Source of the DNA: an uncultured Bacilli bacterium
Lineage (GTDB): Bacteria; Bacillota_I; Bacilli_A; RF39; UBA660
Direction of reading: 5' to 3'
NCBI GenBank assembly: GCA_944358435.1
Contig: CALVRD010000006.1
Coordinates: 1 to 38,343 of the forward strand
DNA: 38,343 nt
Position 1 is the stretch's first letter, and each line of letters begins with the position of its first letter. The translations under genes and the position numbers were made by a program. The notes beneath the pieces were generated by a model, which saw only the letters and a program-made list of their open reading frames with translations, was not told where the DNA came from and did no database searches. Below, piece after piece: positions 3,150 to 38,343 of this stretch.

Positions 3150-3172
3150 AGATGATTTTATCATCTTTTTTT
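3150..3172 (+). terminator. Terminator after smc
   Basis: AGATGAT, a TTT loop and ATCATCT form a 7-bp hairpin that ends in a run of seven T, 11 bases after the smc stop. Confidence 0.75.
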
Positions 3173-3545
3173 GTTTATAACTATTTTCTTGATAAATGTA
3201 AAAATAGTGGTTATATTAAAGTATTTAATATGTGTAGTAAATAAAATAGTAAATGAAATAAGTCGAAATCATACTCAAGTAAAATCTATTCTTGATGTCA
3301 GTTTTAATAGAATCTATGAACTGCTAAAAAGGAAAACTAAACAACAAGGAAAAGATTATTATCAAATAGATACATATTATCCTAGTAGCAAGAAATGTAG
3401 TCATTGTGGAGAAATAACAAAAATAACAGATAATTTAAGCATAAGAAAAAGAAAATGCAAAGTTTGTGTAAATATAAATGACCAAGATATAAACGCTAGT
3501 ATAAATATTATGTTCGAAGGACTAAAATTACACTATCAAAGTTAA
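3171..3545 (+). pseudogene. tnpB: TnpB (IS200/IS605 or IS607 group) C-terminal relic
   Basis: Only the last ~95 residues of a TnpB RNA-guided nuclease remain; homology begins near 3250. The region keeps the pattern SKKCSHC...CKVC of the C-terminal zinc ribbon and DQDINAS, which matches the RuvC-III segment carrying the last catalytic aspartate (usually DRDxNA). The rest of the RuvC fold and the N-terminal half are gone, there is no credible start codon or ribosome binding site, and the open frame runs into the smc terminator. It cannot be a working nuclease. No TnpA is present. Confidence 0.8.
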
Positions 3546-22871: not shown

Positions 22872-22902
22872 TAGAAAATTTTTAGTAATTATGATATTAT
22901 TA
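22872..22902 (+). promoter_or_regulatory. Promoter of resident prepilin gene, shared 31-bp block
   Basis: TAGAAA and TATTAT are 17 bases apart, the latter with an extended-10 TG. The block matches 27 of 31 positions with 29020-29050 in front of the second prepilin-like gene, including the spacer, which promoters do not normally conserve. Confidence 0.6.
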
Positions 22903-22964: not shown

Positions 22965-25025
22965 ATGCATAATAGCAAAGGTTTTACTTTAATTGAATTG
23001 TTGGTAGCAATTACGATTATTGGTATTATTACTGTTTTAGCTTTACCTGGTGTTTCTCAATTACAGGCTCGAAATCGTGATAAGAAATTTGAATCTTATG
23101 CTGATAGATTAATGGATGCTGGTAAATTATATGTTGATGCTTATGCTGATGATTTATTTGGTACAGTTGGTGATGGCTGTGCAGATATTTCATATTTAGA
23201 ATTATCTAGTAAGTCATTAATAAAAAAATATGAAACAGATGGAATAAGCTGTGATAATGAAAATACTTTTGTTCAGGTTAATAGAAAGTCTGGAAAGTAT
23301 TCTTATGAAGTTTCATTGCTTTGTACTAAAGGTGATAAAAAAGTTTATGACAAGGTTATTCCAAAATGTGATCAAGAATCTTTAAGTGATGTTCCTACAA
23401 TAGCAGTTTCATATAAGAATATCGGTGGAACAGATAATTGGTCAAGTTCAAAAGAAGTAACGATTAAGGTAACTGCTAAGAATGGACTTAATCAGGGTGC
23501 AAGTATTTCTTATGGATGGAGTAAAGACAGAAATGTTTTCCCTACTTCTATGAAAACTTATAATTTTAGAAATAATCAGGGTGAAACTAGTCTTACTTAT
23601 AAATTTACAGAAAATGATGTATCTGGACAAAATTATTTATTTATTGATGGTGATTATGTTATTGACGTTGGGGGACTATTTGCAGAAGATGTTTGGACAG
23701 AAGAAAAATTGAAGTTTGACAAAATCCCACCAGTAAAACCAGTGTTAACGAATAATCAAAATGGTATTTGGACTGGTGCTGATTTTGTAAATGCAGGAAA
23801 GTATACTATTGTTGTTGAATCAAATGATCCGGAATATAATGCTGCTGATCTAAATAATTCTGATGGTTCAGGTATTCATGATTATCAATATAGATATCCT
23901 AATAGCGAAAATATTTGGCATACTTATTCAAATTCAAATACTAATAGATTTACAACTACACCATTTACAGCAAATAGAAATGAGATAGTTGAAATAAGAG
24001 CATGCGATTATTCAGGTAATTGTTCTGAACCGGCTTCAAGTAATATAATGATCGACAAAATTAAACCAGAAATAACTATAAATGGAGATTTAAGGAAAAT
24101 ATACGGACCAGTATTTGATTTATATGAGGGTGTAACATTTACTGATAATATTACTAGTAGTGATGATATAATTAAAAAGGTATATTTAAATGATAAGGAA
24201 ATTAGTAATTCAAGTGAATTGTCAATTGGTGAAAGTGTAGTTACATATAAGGGTATAGATATTGCTGGAAATGAAGCTACAGTTACGAGAAAAATTACTT
24301 TAGTAGTTGCTAGCACAGAATTTGATTATAAAGAAGAAGAACAAGTTTATACGGTTGAAGCTACAGGAACATATGTAATTGAAGCGTATGGTGCTCAAGG
24401 TGGAAATTCTGGTGGTAATGGAGGTTATCTTAAGGCTGAAGTATATTTAACCGCAGGAGAAAAATTGTATATTACAACCGGTGGTGTAAATGGATTTAAT
24501 GGTGGCGGAGGCTACGGAAACTCAAAATATTATCCAGGCGGTGGTGCTACTACCATTAAATATGACGGAAAAGTTATTGTAATTGCTGGTGGCGGTGGTG
24601 CTGCAGGTGCAACTGGTGAAGGCGGTGCTGGCGGAGCTAGTGATGGTAGCGGTGGTGCTAGTGTTGGAAGTGGTTCCGGCATCGATGGTACAAACGGTGG
24701 CGGTGGAAGTAATAGTCCGGATTCGACTAAAGTTTGCGGCTGTGATCGTTATGAACGTGTATGCGTTGGACATGCCCCAACATATAAATGTTGTTGCAGA
24801 GGTATAGTAATGCATGGTTCATGGACGTGTCTCGTATATGGTTGTACATGTGGTGGTGGATGTACAGGCTATTCTGAGAAGTGTGTTAAAGAAAAAAAAT
24901 GCCCAGTAAGTGGAAAAAGTGGTAAAGGTGGAGCAAGCAGTGTTGTATCACCTGCTACTAAAGTGACTCAAGAAAATGGAAACAGAGATGGCAATGGTTA
25001 TGTTAAAGTAAGTTATAAAATATAG
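22965..25025 (+). CDS. Large prepilin-like surface protein with ALK-type glycine-rich domain
   Basis: The 686-residue protein starts with a type IV prepilin signal, MHNSKG|FTLIELLVAI (cleavage after Gly6, Glu5 of the mature form present), and needs a prepilin peptidase for maturation. Outer domains follow: an unassigned part to ~150, Ig-like repeats (YQYRYPNS near 306; VEIRACDYSGNCSE near 342; DKIKPEITINGD onwards), then a glycine-rich domain at ~470-590 that begins YVIEAYGAQGG and contains GGGATTIKYDGKVIVIAGGGG. This is the pattern known in ALK/LTK receptors and some phage and bacterial surface proteins. A Cys-rich tail (12 Cys in 56 residues, ~591-646) follows. Local GC is clearly higher in the glycine-rich part. 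GGAAGAGGTG precedes the ATG. Confidence 0.85.
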   Translation: MHNSKGFTLIELLVAITIIGIITVLALPGVSQLQARNRDKKFESYADRLMDAGKLYVDAYADDLFGTVGDGCADISYLELSSKSLIKKYETDGISCDNENTFVQVNRKSGKYSYEVSLLCTKGDKKVYDKVIPKCDQESLSDVPTIAVSYKNIGGTDNWSSSKEVTIKVTAKNGLNQGASISYGWSKDRNVFPTSMKTYNFRNNQGETSLTYKFTENDVSGQNYLFIDGDYVIDVGGLFAEDVWTEEKLKFDKIPPVKPVLTNNQNGIWTGADFVNAGKYTIVVESNDPEYNAADLNNSDGSGIHDYQYRYPNSENIWHTYSNSNTNRFTTTPFTANRNEIVEIRACDYSGNCSEPASSNIMIDKIKPEITINGDLRKIYGPVFDLYEGVTFTDNITSSDDIIKKVYLNDKEISNSSELSIGESVVTYKGIDIAGNEATVTRKITLVVASTEFDYKEEEQVYTVEATGTYVIEAYGAQGGNSGGNGGYLKAEVYLTAGEKLYITTGGVNGFNGGGGYGNSKYYPGGGATTIKYDGKVIVIAGGGGAAGATGEGGAGGASDGSGGASVGSGSGIDGTNGGGGSNSPDSTKVCGCDRYERVCVGHAPTYKCCCRGIVMHGSWTCLVYGCTCGGGCTGYSEKCVKEKKCPVSGKSGKGGASSVVSPATKVTQENGNRDGNGYVKVSYKI

Positions 25026-25056: not shown

Positions 25057-25491
25057 ATGAAAAAGAAAAGTATATTAATTGGTTATATAATTTTAGTTGC
25101 TAGTGTGCTATTAATATGTTCTGGTATATTGTTTACTTTAAAAATTGATAATTCTGATCAAAATAAAAAACCTAATGAACATGAAAATAAAGTGCCTAAT
25201 AATTCTAATAAGGATTTTACGGAAAAATATGATGATTTATACACAGAATTAAGTGAAATGTATACATCTAATGCTTATTTGGAACTTCCTAAAGACGAAA
25301 CAGGTAATTTTTATTACTTAACACTTGCTGAATATAAAAGAAGAGGATATGATTTAACACTAGTTAATGCTGATTGTCCAGACTATTCTGAAGTCGCAAA
25401 CTTTGGAATAGAAGTTCCAGGTTATGATAAACCTTATCCTTTTATTGTAGAGCCCGAGACTTGTCGATGGGATGAATCACATCTTAAATAG
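25057..25491 (+). CDS. Small membrane-anchored protein, unknown
   Basis: The 144-residue protein has a basic start, one membrane helix (about 6-28), an Asn/Lys-rich linker and a small outer domain (about 50-144) holding two cysteines (NADCPDYS, PETCRWDE) that could pair. No family is recognised. It follows the prepilin-like gene after 31 bases with GAAAGAGAT before its ATG, so co-expression is likely and a partner role in the same surface structure is a reasonable guess only. Confidence 0.65.
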   Translation: MKKKSILIGYIILVASVLLICSGILFTLKIDNSDQNKKPNEHENKVPNNSNKDFTEKYDDLYTELSEMYTSNAYLELPKDETGNFYYLTLAEYKRRGYDLTLVNADCPDYSEVANFGIEVPGYDKPYPFIVEPETCRWDESHLK

Positions 25492-25874: not shown

Positions 25875-26600
25875 ATGAATAAAAAGAAAAATATAAATAT
25901 TTTAGCAATTTGTTTGATTATTATTGGGGCTGTAATAGTTGCTTTTGGTCTAATTACTAATTTTATTAATAAAAATAAAACTCCAAATACAGAAAGTAAA
26001 AAGGATACAGCAGAGTCAATTTTAAGTAAATTAAGTATTGATAAGTATCTTAGTCTTGCATTAACTTCTTACATTGATCTTGATACCAATATACTAGATA
26101 TTAATTCTGATCAAAATATGATGCTTTATTTTTACAGTAATAGTGATATAAAACATTATAAAATAGAAATTTCCAGCGATTTGGGTGATAAAATTAAGTT
26201 TGTCTATGTAAGGTATGATGATTATATAAATCAACATAAGAAATTATTTGGTGTTGAGCCTACTTTAACTATTGAAACTACTGATGTAAGTTTTAGTAAT
26301 TTAGTTCATGTTAGTAAAGACGACTATAAAGTGGATTCTAGTAATTTGACTACTTGTGATGAAAATAAGCCTAATGAATGTTATATTATGCTTAACGAAT
26401 ATATTGATAATTCTAATAGTTTAGAGTTTTCAAATCTTACTATGAAAAATAATATTATTAATGGAAATATAAAATTACGTAAAAAAGGTGATATGTTTTT
26501 AGATGCTACATTTGAATTTGTGTATGAGAAAAATGGCGATAATTATATTATTAAAAGTCTTAAGATTAATTCAATTAGTAGTTTATTAAATAATTTTTAA
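25875..26600 (+). CDS. Membrane-anchored protein, unknown
   Basis: The 241-residue protein has one N-terminal membrane helix (about 8-29), a Lys/Thr linker and an outer domain rich in Asp, Asn and Ser with beta-strand patterns (IKFVYVRYDDY, MFLDATFEFVYEKNGDNYIIKSLKI). Two cysteines (TTCDENKPNECYIML) are close enough to pair. The topology resembles the proteins at 18-20.6 kb and 25.1 kb. No function can be named. GGGAGAT precedes the ATG; a clear terminator follows. Confidence 0.66.
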   Translation: MNKKKNINILAICLIIIGAVIVAFGLITNFINKNKTPNTESKKDTAESILSKLSIDKYLSLALTSYIDLDTNILDINSDQNMMLYFYSNSDIKHYKIEISSDLGDKIKFVYVRYDDYINQHKKLFGVEPTLTIETTDVSFSNLVHVSKDDYKVDSSNLTTCDENKPNECYIMLNEYIDNSNSLEFSNLTMKNNIINGNIKLRKKGDMFLDATFEFVYEKNGDNYIIKSLKINSISSLLNNF

Positions 26601-28085: not shown

Positions 28086-28982
28086 ATGTTTTTTAAAAAA
28101 ATTGATGAACGTATAAAAGTAATATTTATAATTATTTTAATTCTTTTTTTATTTATAATTTTAAGAGTTTTTTATATTCAAGTAATTGATTATAAAAAAC
28201 TAAATAAGTATGCTTCTAATCTTTGGAGTAGGGATTTACCAATAGAAGCTAATAGGGGATTAATACTTGATAGAAATGGGACTGTTTTAGCTGATAATTT
28301 AACAACAACTAGTCTTGTTTTAATACCTAATCAGATAAAAGATAAAGAAAAAGCAACAAAAGAGTTGGCAAATATTTTAGGCGTTGATTATGATGAAATG
28401 AAAAAACATGTTTATAAAGAAACATCAATTGAGAGAGTTCATCCGGAAGGTAGAAGACTTTCATATGATATTGCGGAAAAAATATCGGCTTTAGAATTAG
28501 CTGGTGTTTATCTTGTGAAAGAGGCTAAGCGTTATTATCCTTATGGGGAACTTTTATCACATACACTTGGATATGTTGGAATTGATAATCAGGGATTATC
28601 AGGATTAGAGTTGCAGTATGATAAATATTTAACTGGTAAAAGTGGAGCAATTAAGTATTTTTCTGATGCTAAAGGAAATAAGTTAAATATTTCGGATATT
28701 TATCTTGAACCTCAAGATGGAATGAATTTAACTTTGACAATTGATATAAATATTCAAAAGTCTATTGAGCGGGAACTTGACAATATAGTTGATATGTTTA
28801 CTCCAGATATGGCTTTAGCAATTGCTATGGATCCAAAGACTGGTGAAATTTTAGGAATTGGATCAAGACCGGGTTATAATCCTAATTCTTATCAAAACTA
28901 CAGTCAGGAAGTTTTGAGTAGAAATTTACCGGTTTGGTCATCATATGAACCAGGTTCAACATTTAATATTGTAACTGCCTAA
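28086..28982 (+). pseudogene. SpoVD/PBP2-like class B PBP, N-terminal part (interrupted gene)
   Basis: The open frame encodes a membrane anchor (about 10-30), pedestal domain (EANRGLILDRNGTVLADN) and the start of a transpeptidase domain, and stops directly after SYEPGSTF-NIVTA. The wording matches the SpoVD/PBP2 group, where the next residues are KI(I/V)T. The serine of SxxK is encoded (28956-28958), but the lysine codon is split: its AA is followed by element DNA, giving Asn, three element-encoded residues and a stop. As it stands the product lacks Lys, SxN and KTG and cannot act as a transpeptidase. The continuation is at 33048. AGAGGTGG precedes the ATG. Confidence 0.9.
28953..28979 (+). 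other. attL of the serine-recombinase element
   Basis: Host GGTTCAACATTT is followed by AA and element arm TATTGTAACTGCC (28967-28979). The arm is the inverted counterpart (11 of 13) of the arm at 33035-33047. AA at 28965-28966 is the inferred crossover dinucleotide. Confidence 0.8.
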
Positions 28983-29019
28983 AATGATACAAAATTATAT
29001 GGAAAAATATTTTTAATAG

Positions 29020-29050
29020 TAGAAAAATTTTAGTAACTATGTTAATATTA
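29020..29050 (+). promoter_or_regulatory. Promoter of element-borne prepilin gene, shared 31-bp block
   Basis: TAGAAA and TAATAT are 17 bases apart with TG in the extended -10 position. The block equals 22872-22902 at 27 of 31 positions. Confidence 0.6.
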
Positions 29051-29093
29051 TATTGTCATGCTAGTGATGATAAGAATAGGAGGTATTATTTGT

Positions 29094-31226
29094 ATGAATG
29101 AATTTAGATATAATAATAAAGGCTTTTCTTTAGTTGAACTTTTAGCGGCAATTGTAATACTTGGATTGCTTAGTACTTTTGCAGTTGTTAGTATTGGAGC
29201 TATTTTAGATAGAGCAGAAAAAAATCATTATCAAACACAGCAAAAAGATATTGTAATGGCTGCTCAGAGCTATGCTCAAGATAATCGAAATATTTTACCA
29301 AAAGAAATTGGTGAGTCGAGAGAAATTACCCTTCAAGAGTTACAAAGTAGAAAGTATATTGGAGATATTCTTGATCGTAGTAAAAATAAATGTACTGTGG
29401 GCTCAGTTACTATTTTTAAATATGCAAAAGATGGATATAGTTATAGACCGTATTTAAAATGTCAAAAATATGAAACTAGTAAAGAAGATTATGGTGAAAA
29501 TGGACCAGAGATAACGTTATCATTAGATAAGAATTATGCTAAACCATCTTTTTCATATGAAATTACTTCAAGTGGTGATAGTAAGATAATTAGTTATAGT
29601 TATGTTATTTATAAACATGGAGTACTTGTTAGAGATAGTGGAAGCATTCCAGTAAGTAGAGTTAATAAAGTTGATAAGAAGGTTGTATCTTTAAAGGATT
29701 TAGTTCCAGGTGAATTTGAAATAATTTTAAGATCTACTAATGTTTATGGATATAGTAGTACAAGGACTGTAAGTGGAAATATTATTGATGAGGGAGCACC
29801 AGAGTGTTATAACATTACGCCAGTTTATACAGAGGCTGATTGGAGAAGATATACAGAACCAGTAGTTATTAATGTAAATTGTCGTGATACTGATGGAAGT
29901 GGTTGCGCGAAAGAGATATTTTCACAAAAATTTTATTATGATACTGGAAAAAATTTTATTGAGATGATTGATAATGCTGGTGTTAAAAGTAACTGTGAAG
30001 TAGGGGTATATATTGATAATACTCCTCCTAGTAAACCAGTAATTAGTAATCCGTATGAAAATGTTTGGATTAATAAAAGTTATACAATTCAAGTAAGTTC
30101 GGTAGATGAAACGTCAGGAATTAAATATTTTGAATATAGATATCCTAATTCTGTAGAAGCATCCGAAAGAGAGTGGACAAAGTATGAAAATTCTAACAAA
30201 GATCCTAAAGATACAACACCTTTTACGACAACACCTTTTTCTAAGGAAAGAAGTGAGTATGTTGAGATAAGAGCATGTGACTATGCAGGAAATTGTTCTG
30301 AATCTACTCAAAGTATGATTAAGTTAGATAAGACAGTTCCAACTTGTACAATTAGTAGAAGTATTACTTCGCCTAATGGTGCAAATGGTTGGTACGTATC
30401 GGATGTTACTATGAATATGTCACTAACTGATAATACTAGTGGTGTTGCTACTGCGGTTAAAAGTCCGATTGCTTATGAATTAACTACTAATAAGACACCT
30501 GTTTATTCAGCAATGAATTTATCAGCTGTTCAAAATGAAACCAAGGGTTTAACTTGGAACGGTTATATAAAGGATGAGGCTGGCAATGTTTCTTCTTGTA
30601 CAGATGAATCTGGAGATATTAAAATAGATACAACGCCACCAACGTGTAAGTTAAGTGTTAATACTTCACAAGTAACTTTTGCCAATCGTACAGAAAATAC
30701 ATCTGGTTTTGCGGGTTATAGTATTGATAGGTCATCTACTCCTAGTTATGATTCATCTACTAGTGCAAATTTTGATACTGGAACGTTTTATGGTCATTTA
30801 AAAGATAATGCTGGAAATACAAATACATGTAAAGCTACTGTTACAAATACAACTAAAACAACTGGTACTGAGAGATATTGTACTGCTAATGAAGATAGTG
30901 GCGGCTGCTATAAATATACTGGTGCTTCTGCACATACAACATATGAGGGTGTATGTAGTTGTAAAAAGCGTATACCAGGAAGTGGTGGTTGGTATCATAT
31001 TCAATCAACTTGTACTTCTAGTGGTGGATGTAGTTGCCCAGGTGATATGAGTACTGCTGATACATCTGGCTGTCGTAGAAAAACGACTTATAGTTGCTCA
31101 AGTGGATACCTAGTTGGTAGTTCTTGTAAAGTTTATATAGGTTATTCAACGAGACCTATTACTGTGTATGTGTGTGATTCAGGATATACTAAAATGAATA
31201 ATTCTTATTGTTATAAACTTGATTAG
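29094..31226 (+). CDS. Large prepilin-like surface protein (element cargo)
   Basis: The 710-residue protein starts with a prepilin signal, MNEFRYNNKG|FSLVELLAAI (cleavage after Gly10, Glu5 present), followed by a helix typical of pilins, then Ig-like repeats and a Cys-rich tail (12 Cys over about 115 residues, from ~595). FEYRYPNS near 345 and VEIRACDYAGNCSE near 389 are almost the same as in the protein at 22,965, so the two are paralogues over that part; the glycine-rich domain is absent here. Repeats with DEAGNVSSC and DNAGNTNTC mark further Ig-like units. AGGAGG lies 10 bases before the ATG. A strong terminator follows. It likely decorates the surface or a pilus; no assembly genes are nearby. 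Confidence 0.85.
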   Translation: MNEFRYNNKGFSLVELLAAIVILGLLSTFAVVSIGAILDRAEKNHYQTQQKDIVMAAQSYAQDNRNILPKEIGESREITLQELQSRKYIGDILDRSKNKCTVGSVTIFKYAKDGYSYRPYLKCQKYETSKEDYGENGPEITLSLDKNYAKPSFSYEITSSGDSKIISYSYVIYKHGVLVRDSGSIPVSRVNKVDKKVVSLKDLVPGEFEIILRSTNVYGYSSTRTVSGNIIDEGAPECYNITPVYTEADWRRYTEPVVINVNCRDTDGSGCAKEIFSQKFYYDTGKNFIEMIDNAGVKSNCEVGVYIDNTPPSKPVISNPYENVWINKSYTIQVSSVDETSGIKYFEYRYPNSVEASEREWTKYENSNKDPKDTTPFTTTPFSKERSEYVEIRACDYAGNCSESTQSMIKLDKTVPTCTISRSITSPNGANGWYVSDVTMNMSLTDNTSGVATAVKSPIAYELTTNKTPVYSAMNLSAVQNETKGLTWNGYIKDEAGNVSSCTDESGDIKIDTTPPTCKLSVNTSQVTFANRTENTSGFAGYSIDRSSTPSYDSSTSANFDTGTFYGHLKDNAGNTNTCKATVTNTTKTTGTERYCTANEDSGGCYKYTGASAHTTYEGVCSCKKRIPGSGGWYHIQSTCTSSGGCSCPGDMSTADTSGCRRKTTYSCSSGYLVGSSCKVYIGYSTRPITVYVCDSGYTKMNNSYCYKLD

Positions 31227-31242
31227 ATTTTCAATAAAAAGT

Positions 31243-31283
31243 AAAATAAGCTAATAGTAAGCAAACTATTGCTTATTTTTTTT
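31243..31283 (+). terminator. Terminator after cargo gene
   Basis: AAAATAAGC-AATAGT pairs with ACTATT-GCTTATTTT around a 6-base loop, with one unpaired T, then a T run. Confidence 0.85.
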
Positions 31284-31335
31284 CTTAAAAATGTTCTTAA
31301 ATGTTTTCTATTTAATATGATATACTGGAGGACTT

Positions 31336-31464
31336 ATGAAAATAGATGACTTTATAATTGAAGTTAAATTAGTTTTAAATAAAGAATTATATGAGGCAAA
31401 TCTAATTACTTATAATCAGTATATAATGGCTATTAAAGAAATAAGAAAGAGTAATTTATGTTGA
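31336..31464 (+). CDS. 42-residue SHOCT-like protein coupled to the recombinase
   Basis: The short protein starts MKIDDFIIEVKLVL and contains LYEANLITYNQYIMAIKEIRK, which resembles the short helical SHOCT pattern (L..G.IT..EY) found in many small mobile-element proteins. GGAGGA precedes the ATG with only 4 bases between. Its last seven bases overlap the recombinase start, implying translational coupling. It could be an accessory or directionality factor of the recombinase; that is a guess from position. Confidence 0.6.
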   Translation: MKIDDFIIEVKLVLNKELYEANLITYNQYIMAIKEIRKSNLC

Positions 31465-33011
31465 CAAGAGAAAAAATATTTTTAGGAGAAAATATTAATA
31501 ATATAAAGTTACGTGTAACTTATTATGCAAGGGTTTCTACTGATACTGATGAACAATTAAATTCATTAGAAAATCAAACTAACTACTTTGAAAATTATAT
31601 TAAAGAAAACAATAATTGGACATATATTCCAGGATATATTGATGAGGGGTTGAGTGGAAGTACAGTAAAAAATAGATATAATTTTTTAAGAATGATTGAA
31701 GATGCTAAAAGGGGACTTTTTGATTTAATTATTACAAAAGAAGTATCAAGATTTTCACGTAATCTATCAGATAGTATTAAATATACGCAAATGCTTCTTC
31801 AATATAATGTTGGTGTTTATTTTCAAACTAATGGTATAAATACATTTGATCCTAACTCAGAATTTATTTTAAACATGATGGGAAGTGTAGCTCAAGAAGA
31901 AGTAAAAAGATTGTCGCTTAGAGTTAAATGGGGACATAAAAACGCTATTAAAAGGGGAAGAATATTAGGTTCAAATAATATAACTGGTTATCAAAAAAAT
32001 AATGGTAAGTTAACAGTTGATGAGAATGAGGCCATAAAAGTAAGAAAAATATTTACTCTTTATGCTTCTGGTAAATATGGATTAAATAAATTAGCAAGAG
32101 AGTTATATAGACAGAATATCACTAATTCTAATAATAATATTTATGATAAAGAAACTTTAAAACGAATTTTAGAAAATCCAAAATATAAAGGTTATTATCG
32201 AGGGCATACAACTGAAATAATAGATTATCGATTGAAAAGGAGAATTATTATTCCTAAGAATGAACAATTAATTTATAAGGATGATAGTATTCCTCAAATA
32301 GTATCAGAAGAATTATGGGAAGAAGCTAATCAAATTTTAAGGAAAAGAAGTACACAGATAAAAGGAAAAAAGATAAAAATAACTACTTATCCATATACTA
32401 ATAAACTTTTTTGTAAGGAGCATAATAGTTCTTTTTATCGAAAGATATCAAGAAAAGAGAAGGTAACTTATTCTTGTAATTTATATTTAAAGAATGGGGT
32501 TAAGGCATGCTATAGTCCAATTATTAATGAAGATGATTTAAATAGTATTATTAGAATTATTTTAAATAATATTTTGTGGGATTATAGAGAAAAGATCGAA
32601 AAGTCACTTATAATTATGTATGAAGATATTATGAAATTAAATGATTGTAATCAAAAGTATTTAAAGGAACTTACCAGTCGAAAAAAGAAAATTTTGGAAT
32701 TATATATAAATAACAATTTAAGCCAAGAAGACTTTAAAATTTATAATGATGATTGTAATAAAAAAATTAATAACCTCAAAAGTGAAAACCATTATCAAGA
32801 TTTTAGAAAAATAAGAAATTATTTATCTAGCTTACTTTATTTTGAAGATATAAGTAAATATATTGATAAGCTTTTAAATAAAATTATAATTTCTTGTATT
32901 GATAAAAGACGTGAATGTATTAGGTTGGAGATTTATTTGAAAATTAAACAAACTGTACCGAATTTTTTATATAATTCAAAAAATAAGTCATATTATGTTG
33001 AATTTCTTTAA
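31458..33011 (+). CDS. Large serine recombinase (integrase)
   Basis: The 517-residue enzyme has the resolvase-like catalytic domain (YYARVSTD with Ser27; EVSRFSRN near 95-102; GSVAQEEVKRLSLRVKWG near 145-162), the recombinase domain (about 170-280) and a zinc-ribbon region with CKEH (near 319) and further cysteines (YSC, ACYSP), then a long coiled segment, as in phage and transposon large serine integrases. It cuts two short att sites at a central dinucleotide and rejoins them. Its stop is 24 bases from the right arm, the usual place for such a gene. No strong binding site of its own is seen; it overlaps the small upstream ORF. Confidence 0.93.
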   Translation: MLTREKIFLGENINNIKLRVTYYARVSTDTDEQLNSLENQTNYFENYIKENNNWTYIPGYIDEGLSGSTVKNRYNFLRMIEDAKRGLFDLIITKEVSRFSRNLSDSIKYTQMLLQYNVGVYFQTNGINTFDPNSEFILNMMGSVAQEEVKRLSLRVKWGHKNAIKRGRILGSNNITGYQKNNGKLTVDENEAIKVRKIFTLYASGKYGLNKLARELYRQNITNSNNNIYDKETLKRILENPKYKGYYRGHTTEIIDYRLKRRIIIPKNEQLIYKDDSIPQIVSEELWEEANQILRKRSTQIKGKKIKITTYPYTNKLFCKEHNSSFYRKISRKEKVTYSCNLYLKNGVKACYSPIINEDDLNSIIRIILNNILWDYREKIEKSLIIMYEDIMKLNDCNQKYLKELTSRKKKILELYINNNLSQEDFKIYNDDCNKKINNLKSENHYQDFRKIRNYLSSLLYFEDISKYIDKLLNKIIISCIDKRRECIRLEIYLKIKQTVPNFLYNSKNKSYYVEFL

Positions 33012-33034
33012 TATGGTATAGTTGTTTCTTTTCT

Positions 33035-33062
33035 GGCTGTTACAATTAAGATTGTCACGATG
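33035..33062 (+). other. attR of the serine-recombinase element
   Basis: Element arm GGCTGTTACAATT (33035-33047), the AA dinucleotide (33048-33049), then host GATTGTCACGATG. The host part begins with the rest of the lysine codon (AAG) and reads KIVTMATAV. Confidence 0.8.
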
Positions 33063-33215
33063 GCTACGGCAGTAGAAGAAAAGGTTGTTGACTTGGAGCA
33101 TGATCATTTTTATGATTCTGGTAAAGTAACTGTTGATGGAGCTACAATGCGCTGTTGGAAAGCTGGTGGACATGGAGATCAAACATTTCTTCAGGTATTG
33201 CAAAATTCTTGTAAC
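33048..33215 (+). pseudogene. SpoVD/PBP2-like PBP, middle part (interrupted gene)
   Basis: This continues the gene at 28086: KIVTMATAVEEKVVDLEHDHFYDSG, then VDGATMRCWKAGGHGDQTF and LQVLQNSCN. These match the stretch of SpoVD-type PBPs between SxxK and SxN; Ser-Cys-Asn at 33207-33215 is the second catalytic motif. Similarity stops immediately after the Asn codon, where PBPs continue PGF, and unrelated DNA follows. An ATG at 33060 within it is a methionine of the PBP, not a gene start. The KTG-bearing third part is not in the window. Confidence 0.88.
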
Positions 33216-33880
33216 CTAGTAGCCGAACAAGAGATACCAAACACATTGAAAAAAAGCCCGAAAATAAAGGAAAAATTAATGATTTAAAAAATATTAAACC
33301 AAGTGTTTTAGCAAGAGAGACTTATTCGTTTAAAGATGTATATCAAAGAAGTGATTTTAAAGTAGATTATGTTTATGAAGTGGAATTAATAGTTGTAAAA
33401 GATTTACATGGATATAATTCGGTAACAAAAACAGACGAATTTAAAGAATTTTTATCAAACGAATTAGAAAGTGAAAAATATATAAATTATGATCCAGATA
33501 TTAATATAAGAGATTTGTATCCATTAGAGATACATACAAAAGATAAAGATGAAACTCTTGTAAATTATTTTGACAAAATAAACGACTTAATTTTAAATTA
33601 TGATTCAAGAATAAATAGGAGAGTAACTAAAAGAGAAATTGTTTATAAAAAAGATAAAAGTAAGTCTATTGTTGCAATAAGAATTTCAAAAAAAGGATAT
33701 ATAAAATTATTTGTAAACGGAAACATTAATGAGTATGATAATCAAAATAAATTTGATACTGTTCCAGAAAAAACAAATAAACCATTAAATAAAGTATTAA
33801 AAATATATAATGATAGTGATTTTCATTATTTAGAAACAGTAATTTTTAAATACTTAAGTAAGGTACTACAAAAAAGGTAG
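33216..33880 (+). pseudogene. DUF5655-like protein, 5'-truncated
   Basis: One frame is open from the PBP junction to 33880 without a credible start or binding site, and a GTG at 33380 is the first usual start codon. From ~33290 it reads KPSVLARETYSFKDVYQRSDF and ends in LVNYFDKINDLILNYDSRINRR and REIVYKKDKS, resembling the DUF5655 domain, which closes some GmrSD-type restriction proteins and stands alone in others. The likely reading is a gene that lost its first part when the junction formed. The family call is from remembered pattern and only moderately sure. Confidence 0.5.
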
Positions 33881-33891
33881 TATCTTTTTTT
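33862..33891 (+). terminator. Terminator
   Basis: GGTACTAC pairs with GTAGTATC (one G-U pair) around an A-rich loop containing the end of the coding frame; seven T follow. Confidence 0.75.
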
Positions 33892-33904
33892 AGGAGGTGT
33901 AAAA

Positions 33905-34654
33905 ATGTCAGTATTTAAAATAGAAAAAACCAAAGATTTTACAGTAATGAGTAATCATCATTTACGAGATAAAAATTTAAGTTTAAAAGCTAGAGGACTT
34001 CTTTCTTATATGTTATCTTTACCAGATGATTGGGATTATTCATTAGCAGGTTTAGTAGCAAATTGTAAAGAAAGTGTAACATCAGTAAGATCAGCACTTG
34101 AAGAATTAAAACAATATCGGTATTTAATAATTGATAAATTATATCCAAATGTTACTGAAAGCAAAAAAATAGAGTATGTATATAATATTTATGAACAACC
34201 GAAATTACAAGAACTATATAATCAAGATACTGAAAACCTATATCTTGAAAATGATACACAACTAAATACTAATAAACAAATAACTAATAAACAAATAGAT
34301 AAAGATGATAAAACCAAAATATCATCTTTTTTTGCTAAAGAAGAACATAATAGATTAACATTAGAACTTATAGGTAGATATTTTATTAATGAAGATGATA
34401 TACAAATCTTCTATTATGATGATTTATTTGAAAAATTATTAGAAGAAAATTCATATCAAGATTTAATAAGAATAATACATTATATAGTTCCAAGAGTAAA
34501 AAATAGAAACTTTAAAGATGAAGATGGTAATCCTATTGAAAATAAATTTGGATATTTTAGAAATGCTATGTTAAGTAATATACATAAGTTAAATACAATA
34601 ATAGAAGATTTATGGGGAGATGACGATTTGTTTAGTGATATTTTTGAAAGATAA
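33905..34654 (+). CDS. HTH replication-type protein of mobile elements
   Basis: The 249-residue protein starts MSVFKIEKTKDFTVMSNHHLRD and LSLKARGLLSYMLSLPDDWDYSLAGL, the winged-helix opening seen in many replication-initiator or replisome-organiser proteins of Firmicutes plasmids, phages and integrative elements. The middle is polar, and the C-terminal part (about 150-240) is helical with ENKFGYFRNAML near 216-227, a pattern that recurs at the end of DnaD-like or DUF6017-like proteins. AGGAGGTG precedes the ATG. The hairpin cluster after it may be the target site. It marks this segment as accessory DNA. Confidence 0.75.
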   Translation: MSVFKIEKTKDFTVMSNHHLRDKNLSLKARGLLSYMLSLPDDWDYSLAGLVANCKESVTSVRSALEELKQYRYLIIDKLYPNVTESKKIEYVYNIYEQPKLQELYNQDTENLYLENDTQLNTNKQITNKQIDKDDKTKISSFFAKEEHNRLTLELIGRYFINEDDIQIFYYDDLFEKLLEENSYQDLIRIIHYIVPRVKNRNFKDEDGNPIENKFGYFRNAMLSNIHKLNTIIEDLWGDDDLFSDIFER

Positions 34655-34669
34655 ATTAATTCAAAAAAA

Positions 34670-34810
34670 AATTACCCCAATACTTGCAGGTAATTCTACT
34701 ACTCAACCGATATACTACATTACTGCATCGGTTGTTTACTGCTCAACTGAAATACTACATATTGCATCAATTGAATCAGATAAACACAATACTACTAACT
34801 ACTTTGTGTT
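34670..34810 (+). repeat. Cluster of four hairpins with TACTAC loops
   Basis: Hairpins are AATTACC/GGTAATT (34670-34695), CAACCGAT/ATCGGTTG (34704-34734), TCAACTGA/TCAATTGA (34743-34774, one mismatch) and AACACAA/TTGTGTT (34783-34810). Loops two to four contain TACTAC, and CTACTAC also lies just before hairpin two. Hairpins two and three are diverged copies of one unit. No protein frame explains this. An origin or nick site next to the HTH gene is the first guess. Confidence 0.6.
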
Positions 34811-34942
34811 CACTGACAAATTAATAATACAACACATTCTGCCATAAGTCAACAAATTTTGACATATTTAGTAAAAAATTCAGTGATGACAGTTCGTGTT
34901 TATTTTTTTGTATTTAGAATAAACTAGAATTGGTGGTGTTAG

Positions 34943-35200
34943 TTGAAAATATATAATATCCGTAAAGTGTTAGGAGATAATGTAAGGTATTATAGATATA
35001 AGATCGGCTATACACAAGAAGAACTTGCTGAAAAAACTGATATAAGTCCCAGATATATAAGTGATATAGAAAATGGTAGAGGAAATATTTCTTTAGATAC
35101 CTTAGAAATTTTAGGACAAGGATTGAAAGTGGAGCCATATATATTGTTAAAACTACAAAATCACCGAGCTTTACCAAAGAGAGTCAATATGAAAAAATAG
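34943..35200 (+). CDS. XRE-family transcriptional regulator
   Basis: The 85-residue protein has one Cro/C1-type helix-turn-helix: VLGDNVRYYRYKIGYTQEELAEKTDISPRYISDIENGRGNIS pattern at about 9-50, then LDTLEILGQGLKVEPYILL. It is a small repressor typical of mobile elements and would bind an operator near its own or a neighbouring promoter. TTG is the start, 6 bases after GGTGG. The dyads at 35214-35252 are possible binding sites. Confidence 0.85.
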   Translation: MKIYNIRKVLGDNVRYYRYKIGYTQEELAEKTDISPRYISDIENGRGNISLDTLEILGQGLKVEPYILLKLQNHRALPKRVNMKK

Positions 35201-35213
35201 ACTTTCTTTTTTT

Positions 35214-35252
35214 GAACAAAATTTATGTTCATAAGGTAGAACTAAGAGTTCT
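35214..35252. promoter_or_regulatory. Two short dyads downstream of the XRE gene
   Basis: GAACA/TGTTC (35214-35230, near-perfect 17-bp palindrome) and AGAACT-AAG-AGTTCT (35238-35252) lie between the XRE gene and the extended -10 TGCTATAAT at 35302-35310. They share the core GAAC. Operators for the XRE protein are plausible. Confidence 0.35.
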
Positions 35253-35326
35253 ATATATTTTAGAAAAAATGTAGAAAAATAGTAAAAAAAATCGTATTAT
35301 ATGCTATAATTAATGTGAGGGGTTGT

Positions 35327-35389
35327 ATGAAAGTAGTTCTTTATATGATGTGTTCTACATTAAAATGTGTAAATGTGCAAAAAAAGTGA
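35327..35389 (+). CDS. 20-residue ORF, possible leader peptide
   Basis: MKVVLYMMCSTLKCVNVQKK is preceded by GAGGGG and by the extended -10 TGCTATAAT at 35302-35310. It has the signals of a translated ORF but no homology that I can see. It lies 145 bases before the next gene. The rest of 35201-35533 holds no other gene; GGAAAGGAGTG at 35440-35450 is a good binding site with no suitable start after it. Confidence 0.35.
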   Translation: MKVVLYMMCSTLKCVNVQKK

Positions 35390-35533
35390 AAATTACTTTG
35401 TACAAAAAGAGGAATATTAAATTTCATATTACCGTTCAAGGAAAGGAGTGACTTAAGGATATTATAGATTTGTTTTTTATAAAAAATGGCAAAAGTATAA
35501 GTTTGCAAAAATATAAAAGAAAAGATAAAAAAA

Positions 35534-36613
35534 ATGAAAAAAAAAAATATTGCAATTATATGTTCTGTTGTAGTTGTAATAATCGGTATGATTGTATCAT
35601 TACTTTTGTTAAATAACAAAAAATATGAAGTGCAATTTGATAGTAATGGTGGAAGTTTAATAGAAACTCAAACAGTTAAAAAATCTGACACTGTAACAAA
35701 ACCAACTGATCCTACCAAATCTGGCTATGAATTTGATAATTGGTATTTGGATGATGAAATATTTGATTTTTCTACACCTATAACAAAGAATATAACATTA
35801 GTTGCAAAATGGTTAAAAAAATCTGATAAACCTTCAGATGAATCAGTTGAAGTAGAAAAGTATACTGTCAAATTTGATAGTAATGGTGGATCTGATGTTT
35901 CTTCAATTGAAGTTGAAGAAAATGAGTCAGTAACAAAACCAACAGTTCCTACAAGAAAAGGTTATAAGTTCGTTTCTTGGCAATTAAATGGAAAAGATTT
36001 TGATTTTTCAACAAAAATAACAAAAAATATTACATTAGTTGCAAAATGGGAAAAGGTTTCTTCAAAACCTAATACTGGTGGAAATACTGGTGGAAATACT
36101 GGCGGAAATACTGGCGGAAATACTGGTGAAAATACAGAAGATAAACCGACAATTGTTGAAGTAACTAGTGTAAGCATCTCTAAAACAACATTAAGCCTTA
36201 ACATTGGGGATAGTTCTACACTTTCAGCAACAGTAAATCCTAATAATGCTACTAATAAAACTATTACTTGGAGTAGTAGTAATTCATCAGTAGCAACAAT
36301 TGATAGTAATGGTAAAGTTACTGCAGTAGGTGCAGGTACAACAACAATTACTGCTAAAGTAGGTGGAAAAACTGCTACTTGTACAATTACTGTTATAAAA
36401 CCTATAACATATTCAATAAAATGGGAAAAAGTAGAAAATAGTTCTATCGGACAATATATGTTATATATAAGAAGTTCTGAAGGAAAAAATGTATCTGGTG
36501 TAGTTACTATAACTACAACTGCAGGAACATCTAGTGATGTTGAAATAACTTCTGCAGGAAAGATGTATATAAAATCTGCAGTACAGAATGCAGTTGTAAA
36601 ATCTGTAAATTAA
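35534..36613 (+). CDS. Surface protein with InlB B-repeats and a Big2 domain
   Basis: The 359-residue protein has one N-terminal membrane helix (about 5-26), two InlB/Listeria-Bacteroides-type repeats (YEVQFDSNGGS near 31 to LVAKW near 92; YTVKFDSNGGS near 109 to LVAKW near 171), a Gly/Asn linker (NTGG repeated), and a Big2-type Ig domain (VTSVSISKTTLSLNIGDSSTL near 211 to ATCTITV), then an ending of unknown type. Such proteins bind or display at the cell surface. The binding site before the ATG is poor (AAAAGA). No LPXTG is present, so the helix is the anchor. It follows the XRE gene and precedes a secreted protein. Confidence 0.8.
   Translation: MKKKNIAIICSVVVVIIGMIVSLLLLNNKKYEVQFDSNGGSLIETQTVKKSDTVTKPTDPTKSGYEFDNWYLDDEIFDFSTPITKNITLVAKWLKKSDKPSDESVEVEKYTVKFDSNGGSDVSSIEVEENESVTKPTVPTRKGYKFVSWQLNGKDFDFSTKITKNITLVAKWEKVSSKPNTGGNTGGNTGGNTGGNTGENTEDKPTIVEVTSVSISKTTLSLNIGDSSTLSATVNPNNATNKTITWSSSNSSVATIDSNGKVTAVGAGTTTITAKVGGKTATCTITVIKPITYSIKWEKVENSSIGQYMLYIRSSEGKNVSGVVTITTTAGTSSDVEITSAGKMYIKSAVQNAVVKSVN
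36071..36130 (+). repeat. 12-bp tandem repeat coding NTGG
   Basis: About five copies of AATACTGGTGGA (GGT/GGC variants) encode Asn-Thr-Gly-Gly. The unit is a multiple of three, so copy change alters linker length without shifting the frame. Confidence 0.85.
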
Positions 36614-36631
36614 AAAAGAAAGGAAGTAAAA

Positions 36632-38343
36632 ATGAAAAAGTGGATTAAAAAAACAATTTTTAGCACATTTTTATTTGTTGTAGCCATTTTATCTACTGTT
36701 ACAGTTTCTGCATTAACTATTACTGAAACTGTAGATGAAGATATTGCAGATGGCACAATTATAATGGGGATAACTAAATTCGAACCTAATGTTGTAATTA
36801 CTGCACTTCGTGCATCTGATGCAACATTTAATGATGTTATTTTTAATTATAATAAACCAAATTATAAAGGTGTAAATATTTATTATTTATTATCTGGATC
36901 TTGGTTTGAAATTGATGAAGAAAATAATGCTCATCCAATAGAAAATGAAGAGTTAATACAACAATTAAATGAAGTGGATATTTATTATGTAAATAATAAT
37001 GAAAAAATGTTAGAAATATCTTATTCAGAAAATGTACCAACAGGTTATGAATTGATATTTGAAACAAATAACTCTGCTAAAAATGATGAAATTAAATATG
37101 AAGCAGGAAAAATCAAAGTACCTGCAACAATAAATGAAGTAAAAGTTTTGTTACAAAATACTGAAACAAAAGAAAAAGAAATAATAGATGTATTTGAAAA
37201 AAATGCAAGAAATGATGTAACATTTGTTAATACTTCAACAATGGATGTAACTAATTTAGTTCAATTAAAAGATGCTTTAAACAATAAAGACATCAAAACA
37301 ATAAATATTACAAAAAATATTACTGATGTAGCTGAAAGAATTGTAATTGATAGAAAAGTGGAAGTTAATGGTAATGGAAACAAAATAACATTTACAAGTG
37401 CAGTTAATGAAGCGGCATATGGAAGTAGACATGGTATATTAGTAAATGCAGATGATGTAACAATAACAGATTTAGTTGTTGAAATGGATGCAAATACAAA
37501 CGATTTAACATGGACTGGAACATATGGAATTCAAGTGTTTGAATCAAAAGGTGTAATATTAAATAACATTACTGCAACAAAAGCAGATGGTGGATTATTT
37601 GCAAATGATAGTACAGTAACATTAACAGGAACAATCACTCTATCAGGAAATGAATTTGGTGGAATGGAAGTTTCAAATGGAACTGCAACATTAAATGCAA
37701 AAGGTGCAACAATTGTTAATACATCAGAAAGATATGCTCAACCAACAATTTGGACAGATAGTGAAAATGCTGTAGTAAATTCTAATTTAATAAGTGCAAA
37801 AATTAGAGATGGACAAAAACAATATTATTTAGAGGAAGCAAATACAACATTAAATAACATTGAAGATTTTAAAGTTGCTTTATCAATAAAAACAATCAAT
37901 ACATTAAATATAGGAGCAAATTTCACTGGATTAACTGAAAGAATTGTAATTGATAGAAAAGTGGAAGTTAATGGTAATGGAAACAAAATAACATTTACAA
38001 GTGCAGTTAATGAAGCGGCATATGGAAGTAGACATGGTATATTAGTAAATGCAGATGATGTAACAATAACAGATTTAGTTGTTGAAATGGATGCAAATAC
38101 AAACGATTTAACATGGACTGGAACATATGGAATTCAAGTTTATGATGCAACAGGAGTAGTAATTAATAATTATACAGGAACAAAAGCAGATGCTGCATTA
38201 ATGCTAAATGGATCAGAAGTAGAATTAACAGGGACTACAACAGTAACAGGAAACGAATTTGGAGGAATCGAAGTGTCAAAAGGAACTGCTCCAAATAATT
38301 CTAAATTAACAGTTGCAGGAACAGTAGTATCAACTGATGAAGA
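36632..38343 (+). CDS. Large secreted beta-helix-like protein (partial)
   Basis: The frame stays open to the window end (570 codons). It starts with a signal peptide, MKKWIKKTIFSTFLF then VVAILSTVTVSALTI, with cleavage probable after VSA. After a leader domain (about 30-190), repeats of right-handed beta-helix style (pectate-lyase-like: VTITDLVVEMD, GIQVFESKGVILNNITATKADGG, GNEFGGMEVSNGTATL) begin near 205. One long block is repeated with a 201-residue period. GGAAG precedes the ATG. The C-terminus and any anchor are outside, so its fate at the surface is unknown. Confidence 0.75.
   Translation, partial: MKKWIKKTIFSTFLFVVAILSTVTVSALTITETVDEDIADGTIIMGITKFEPNVVITALRASDATFNDVIFNYNKPNYKGVNIYYLLSGSWFEIDEENNAHPIENEELIQQLNEVDIYYVNNNEKMLEISYSENVPTGYELIFETNNSAKNDEIKYEAGKIKVPATINEVKVLLQNTETKEKEIIDVFEKNARNDVTFVNTSTMDVTNLVQLKDALNNKDIKTINITKNITDVAERIVIDRKVEVNGNGNKITFTSAVNEAAYGSRHGILVNADDVTITDLVVEMDANTNDLTWTGTYGIQVFESKGVILNNITATKADGGLFANDSTVTLTGTITLSGNEFGGMEVSNGTATLNAKGATIVNTSERYAQPTIWTDSENAVVNSNLISAKIRDGQKQYYLEEANTTLNNIEDFKVALSIKTINTLNIGANFTGLTERIVIDRKVEVNGNGNKITFTSAVNEAAYGSRHGILVNADDVTITDLVVEMDANTNDLTWTGTYGIQVYDATGVVINNYTGTKADAALMLNGSEVELTGTTTVTGNEFGGIEVSKGTAPNNSKLTVAGTVVSTDE
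37332..37536 (+). repeat. 205-bp direct repeat, copy 1
   Basis: This stretch is identical to 37935-38139, 603 bp later. Both copies lie in the same frame of the secreted protein. Confidence 0.92.
37935..38139 (+). repeat. 205-bp direct repeat, copy 2
   Basis: Identical to 37332-37536; the flanking 398 bp between the copies are diverged. Perfect identity in otherwise drifting repeats implies recent duplication or gene conversion. Confidence 0.92.

Follow-up and report, generated by a model that had tools for sequence, protein, structure and literature searches.

Genes and features of the locus

The window, a stretch of 38,343 nucleotides from an uncultured Bacilli bacterium of the order RF39, is contig C6 of the source genome (G000, 1.24 Mb), which was compared with 192 relatives in a family sample of 193 genomes. 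SpoVD is a sporulation-specific cell-wall transpeptidase and STFK is its active-site motif. We found that the spoVD gene stops at the STFK codons and restarts at position 33050. The intervening DNA holds a gene for a prepilin-signal protein (referred to as the cargo), followed by a 42-aa ORF and a large serine recombinase gene (Table 1). A sequence-only reading of this DNA had placed the cargo gene inside a mobile element, correctly, as a piece of the disrupted gene lies on either side. Another prepilin-signal gene, the resident, is located upstream of spoVD.

The resident gene is followed by two small membrane-type proteins (25057-25491 and 25875-26600); such a neighbor is present beside many chromosomal members of the family and absent beside the element cargo. 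A fragment with a Cas12f1-like TNB domain (TnpB-type zinc ribbon) was found at 3171-3545 of the window.

Table 1. Features of the interrupted spoVD locus (positions in the window, contig C6, unless another contig is given).
Feature	Position	Strand	Description
31-bp block, resident copy	22872..22902	+	sigma-A-type promoter core; 27/31 identical to 29020-29050
Resident prepilin-signal protein, 686 aa	22965..25025	+	signal, Ig-like module, HYR-like part, glycine-rich 12-Cys tail; Pfam N_methyl, ALK_LTK_GRD
spoVD piece 1	28086..28966 (to 28979 in the piece listing)	+	up to STFK codons; TIGR02214 positions 3-296
attL	28950..28985	+	inferred crossover AA at 28965-28966; compared with attR and eight other genomes
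Whole element, about 4.08 kb	28967..33049	+	spoVD pieces on both sides; palindromic attP on joining of the ends (fold z -7.9)
31-bp block, cargo copy	29020..29050	+	27/31 identical to 22872-22902
Cargo prepilin-signal protein, 710 aa	29094..31226	+	Ig-like module, 12-Cys tail; Pfam N_methyl; AGGAGG ribosome-binding site just 5' (by eye)
Terminator-like hairpin and T run, 3' of cargo	31243..31283	+	-13 kcal/mol, z -3.3
42-aa ORF	31336..31464	+	overlaps recombinase start; candidate directionality factor
Large serine recombinase, 517 aa	31458..33011	+	Pfam Resolvase, Recombinase, Zn_ribbon_recom
attR	33030..33065	+	inferred crossover AA at 33048-33049; compared with attL and eight other genomes
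spoVD piece 2	33050..33215 (33036-33218 in the piece listing)	+	KIVTM to SxN motif (SCN); TIGR02214 positions 290-346
Second element, left part	33217..38343 (contig end)	+	at SxN codons; far end and recombinase on C62
spoVD piece 3	C62:2823-3035		TIGR02214
spoVD piece 4	C52:127-792		TIGR02214

The element at the STFK codons

When the flanks were joined in silico at the AA crossover, which was placed by inspection, they read STFKIVTM in frame. The joined element ends form a palindrome and the joined attB has no such fold; the joins serve solely to display the unoccupied site. Related recombinases were found at the same STFK codons in eight other genomes, located at the right or the left end of the element; the cargo genes read in these and in additional records differ from the one here. 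A small ORF occupies the same position in the related elements inspected; the 42-aa protein itself matched no family in the Pfam search. At this site, 20 other elements could be bounded at both ends, and none of them contained a prepilin gene; the proteins they carry include AAA_14/DUF4143, Fic, RelB/ParE, NlpC/P60, LysM, UbiA and others.

A sigma-E promoter before the recombinase operon was not found in G000, and the elements of other genomes gave a mixed picture. In the elements with a left-end recombinase (L168-L178, L180, L194 and L231), the small ORF and then the recombinase come immediately after the spoVD stub and are read in its direction, and the promoter of spoVD could therefore drive both. 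In such elements spoVD may thereby drive the recombinase for its own repair.

The four pieces of spoVD

The four pieces of spoVD on contigs C6, C62 and C52 matched consecutive positions of the TIGR02214 model (stage V sporulation protein D), in frame and without stops. The gene is cut at STFK, at the SxN motif (between SCN and PGF) and after SVTPI (between SVTPI and Q); pieces 2-3 and 3-4 also abut when joined in silico. Two of the three cuts are tied to recombinase genes.

The second element appears to run from C6 to C62, where its recombinase (C62:1004-2551) lies just before the restart of spoVD. Genes in its left part encode an HTH_36 protein, an HTH_3 regulator, a protein (at 35534) that combines Listeria-Bacteroides repeats with an Ig-like domain, and a pectate-lyase-like adhesive-domain protein (at 36632) whose internal repeats are near-identical. 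No recombinase was seen at the third cut in G000. The third element is deduced from the break in spoVD and the adjoining kinase-like and AbiEi-like antitoxin genes, which directly follow the cut (L053:3036-5100) and with which it presumably starts. The second and third elements cross contigs, and no overlap was found between the contig ends of C6 and C62 or of C62 and C52.

By the Nei-Gojobori method, dN/dS of the spoVD pieces was 0.02-0.07, compared with 0.09-0.19 for ackA and 0.12 for ftsI; these ratios are rough, since dS of spoVD is above 1, and they include the time before insertion. By this rough measure, the interrupted spoVD is under purifying selection. The STFK site is occupied in G068 and in all of the three genus members sampled; dS exceeds 1 here too, and no piece contains a stop or frameshift in any of them. 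Counted by eye, 104 of the 193 family genomes contain one intact spoVD copy, and in about 40 of the 193 the match to spoVD breaks off at one of the three cut positions, in some cases where the contig ends. SpoIVA is present and intact in G000 and present in most relatives.

Relationships of the recombinases

In a tree of 50 rows, a fully supported branch has all the STFK recombinases to one side, and those of SxN, dacB and sigK were each on one branch. The target labels needed 8 changes on this tree against 31 in shuffles. Each target class corresponds to one clade, except for left and right subgroups.

The dacB group is composed of recombinases inserted in a D-Ala-D-Ala carboxypeptidase gene, in the SxxK region (by eye), followed by spmA/spmB-like genes; dacB-like cases are L051, L054, L055, L056, L222, L227, L228 and L233. 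In Clostridia, kin recombinases of about 38-41% identity lie beside sigK, and distant clostridial kin stand directly before a SigK-like coding piece in L188, L193, L195, L201, L220, L225 and L236. Seven relatives of the recombinase were found in viral contigs.

Cargo and resident prepilin-signal proteins

Both proteins passed the Pfam cut-off of N_methyl (class III signal), in agreement with the prepilin starts which the sequence-only reading had assigned at 22965 and 29094. BLASTP aligned the two with an E value of 3e-26 and 27% over the aligned length. The strong part of this alignment covers aa 244-397 / 301-449 with 44-49% identity, and it contains YRYPNS and VEIRACDY.GNCSE, the two stretches of Ig-like likeness already picked out in the sequence-only reading. 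This Ig-like module is common to at least 15 family proteins among those compared. The signal domains of the two are distant from each other. Twelve Cys were confirmed in each tail, but the tails are not homologous, that of the resident being a glycine-rich ALK/LTK-like domain.

Domain by domain, the closest relatives of the cargo are one gene of G056 and one of G189; with the former, identity was 84% in the signal domain, 69% in the middle, 73% in the Ig-like part and 33% in the tail. The resident is closest by its signal domain (65-67%) to other genes of these two genomes. The resident was rejected as the source of the cargo, as it is not the closest kin of the cargo in any domain. Since their closest kin are different genes, the tails are unrelated and the Ig-like module is widespread, cargo and resident are paralogues, but old ones. 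The earlier claim of paralogy held for membership of one family; the likeness is mainly that of one Ig-like module, which is largely the case that the same reading had named as contrary to its claim. Between the cargo and the G056 gene, dN/dS climbed from 0.07 in the signal domain to 0.23 in the middle and 0.54 in the tail, as expected for an exposed, changing tip.

A decayed copy of the cargo with five stops exists in the same genome (C1:18323-18949), and over 758 bp its DNA is 86% identical. Next in likeness to the cargo comes a gene on the chromosome of a congener. No cargo homologues were found in viral contigs. The decayed copy supports capture of the cargo from the chromosome, and the comparison supports viewing the cargo as a captured member of a large modular prepilin-signal family, in line with the captured cassette proposed before. 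The other family genes are single, lie amid housekeeping genes and have no recombinase nearby in the stretches read.

A prepilin peptidase and an assembly platform are also present in the genome, as Peptidase_A24 and T2SSF (PilC) were found over the cut-off on contig C9. In this, and in the GFxxxE class III signal, the two proteins resemble type IV pilin systems, including the competence minor pilins (ComGE, GspH-type signal). They differ in their size of about 700 aa, their Ig-like module and their Cys-rich tail, and only the signal region matches.

The 31-bp promoter block

The 27 of 31 matching positions reported between the blocks before the resident and the cargo were correct in coordinates, and the match exceeds the best 31-mer match (24) among 528 other upstream-region pairs of the same genome. 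The two leaders gave a local-alignment score of 23, against a null of 250 pairs with mean 10.2, sd 2.3 and maximum 20. By eye, the core consists of TAGAAA, a 17 bp spacer and an extended -10 with TGn, and is of sigma-A type.

The merged block pattern, with up to 3 mismatches, occurs at only two places in the genome, before the resident and the cargo. Over the 193 family genomes one extra match with 3 mismatches was detected, and the reversed-pattern control gave equally many. Through this search, the block proved unique to the two genes of G000, and no convincing match exists in the 192 relatives. It is absent upstream of the orthologues of resident and cargo and of other family members; therefore it is not the marker of an exchange family, and we rejected it as a family-wide signal of prepilin genes. 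The regions upstream of the resident orthologues share 19-22 of 31 positions with the block, inside the null range, so the block is not a long-conserved regulatory site either. For the decayed copy on C1, the blastn match begins upstream, but closer reading showed convincing likeness in the coding part only, and we do not propose a promoter shared with the cargo.

Comparison with known intervening elements

Elements of this kind are known from gerE (PMC5595907), sigK (PMC5025042), spsM (PMC4191935) and yabG (PMC10747680). The gin element in gerE of Bacillus cereus ATCC 10987 is 28.6 kb long and has three recombinases and a 42-aa directionality factor, GirX (PMC5595907). Like gin, the spoVD element is a non-phage element with a serine recombinase that interrupts a sporulation gene, and going by its description GirX resembles in length the 42-aa ORF beside the recombinase here; the spoVD element differs in its 4.1 kb size, single recombinase, spoVD target and pilin-like cargo. 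The skin element in sigK of Clostridioides difficile, with CD1234 (PMC5025042), also has a large serine recombinase and interrupts a sporulation gene of the mother cell, and kin of our recombinase lie beside sigK in the Clostridia surveyed, but skin is prophage-like and has sigK as its target. SP-beta in spsM (PMC4191935) has a sporulation-associated target that is restored by excision at the time of sporulation, and yin in yabG (PMC10747680) also lies in a sporulation-associated gene; these differ in being prophage or prophage-like and in having other targets.

Our literature search found no paper linking spoVD with a serine-recombinase intervening element. In a survey, spoVD and spmB were reduced or absent in RF39 genomes (PMC10868615), and interruption by elements could be one cause of this absence.

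Proposed role of the element

Although split three times, spoVD still looks as conserved as a working gene, which makes it probable that the elements are removed at spore formation. The STFK element lies inside a sporulation-specific gene, brings its own recombinase, leaves a restored frame when removed in silico, and interrupts a gene with signs, by the rough dN/dS, of purifying selection. As far as the sequence tells, it belongs with the sporulation gene-intervening elements, with a target that we have not found described before. We consider it likely that it is a gin/skin-like element which is excised in the mother cell and carries a captured pilin-like gene.

Recombining attP with attB, the recombinase would place the element in the STFK codons of spoVD, and growing cells, where SpoVD should not be needed, would tolerate this. 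During sporulation, the recombinase of the mother cell, probably together with the 42-aa protein as directionality factor, would excise the element and restore spoVD; the two further cuts in the same genome would also need undoing. The forespore would keep the element, which would thereby be inherited. The cargo would be a chromosomal prepilin-signal Ig-like surface protein that was picked up by the element together with, or before gaining, a promoter and a terminator of its own. As long as the element remains inserted, the cargo would be transcribed from the one to the other, and its product is probably processed by the A24 peptidase and the PilC/pilus machinery encoded on C9. From sequence features we infer that and when the element is excised, what the 42-aa protein does, and that the cargo is expressed and located at the surface.

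The same arrangement could result if an ordinary mobile element had killed spoVD, with insertions so recent that the pieces still look conserved, and sporulation had been lost or reduced. Excision is deduced from sequence, three cuts in one gene could mean that the gene no longer matters, and spoVD is reported as reduced or absent in the order RF39 (PMC10868615). However, the site is filled in the three sampled genus members and G068 at dS above 1, free of stops and frameshifts and with dN/dS of 0.02-0.07, SpoIVA is intact, and the recombinase clade also includes the sigK and dacB elements. We therefore regard a dead spoVD as unlikely.

The sequence-only reading had seen the element as part of an exchange system that shuttles one family of surface proteins, with the common promoter block as its mark. 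Cargo and resident do have the family, the Ig-like module and the block in common, but no block precedes the orthologues or the other family members, and these other genes stand alone among housekeeping genes with no recombinase nearby in the stretches read. The 20 other bounded elements at the STFK site carry other cargo, so nothing shows that this type of element feeds the prepilin family. Such an exchange system is very improbable, and this part of the reading was given up. The block match might reflect co-regulation, in which the cargo gained, or kept by selection, a resident-like promoter for joint production. Identity beyond the null, spacer included, and a block not common to the nearest relatives of the cargo would fit this; on the other side, the resident orthologues have not kept the block, their likeness to it being within the null, and two AT-rich sigma-A promoters could still nearly match in a pair chosen for its likeness. 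We put co-regulation forward tentatively, with chances clearly below even.

Returning to the intervening element excised in the mother cell, we might extend it, with slightly better than even confidence, to spoVD of the whole family as a standing landing strip. There would be three attachment sites at or near the transpeptidase motifs (STFK, SxN, and between SVTPI and Q), the first two with recombinase lineages of their own; one cell could carry three elements, all excised in the mother cell for SpoVD; dacB and sigK would be used likewise by kin recombinases; and the cargo of the small elements would be swappable, here a pilin-like surface gene. This would account for the apparent lack of spoVD in many draft genomes.

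Sporulation-gene intervening elements are known so far from a handful of cases. Here, a single group of related recombinases has its targets in spoVD and dacB of gut Bacilli and in sigK of Clostridia, and one gene remains conserved despite three cuts. If excision does take place, these uncultured bacteria need several programmed DNA rearrangements to form spores, and a draft genome in which spoVD is called absent can owe this to an artefact. The cargo shows that ordinary chromosomal surface genes can travel on elements of this type. Its counterpart in G056 is broken between contigs C12 and C13 (end of L119, start of L115) with an overlap of exactly 141 bases, which suggests strain variants or repeated copies of this gene.
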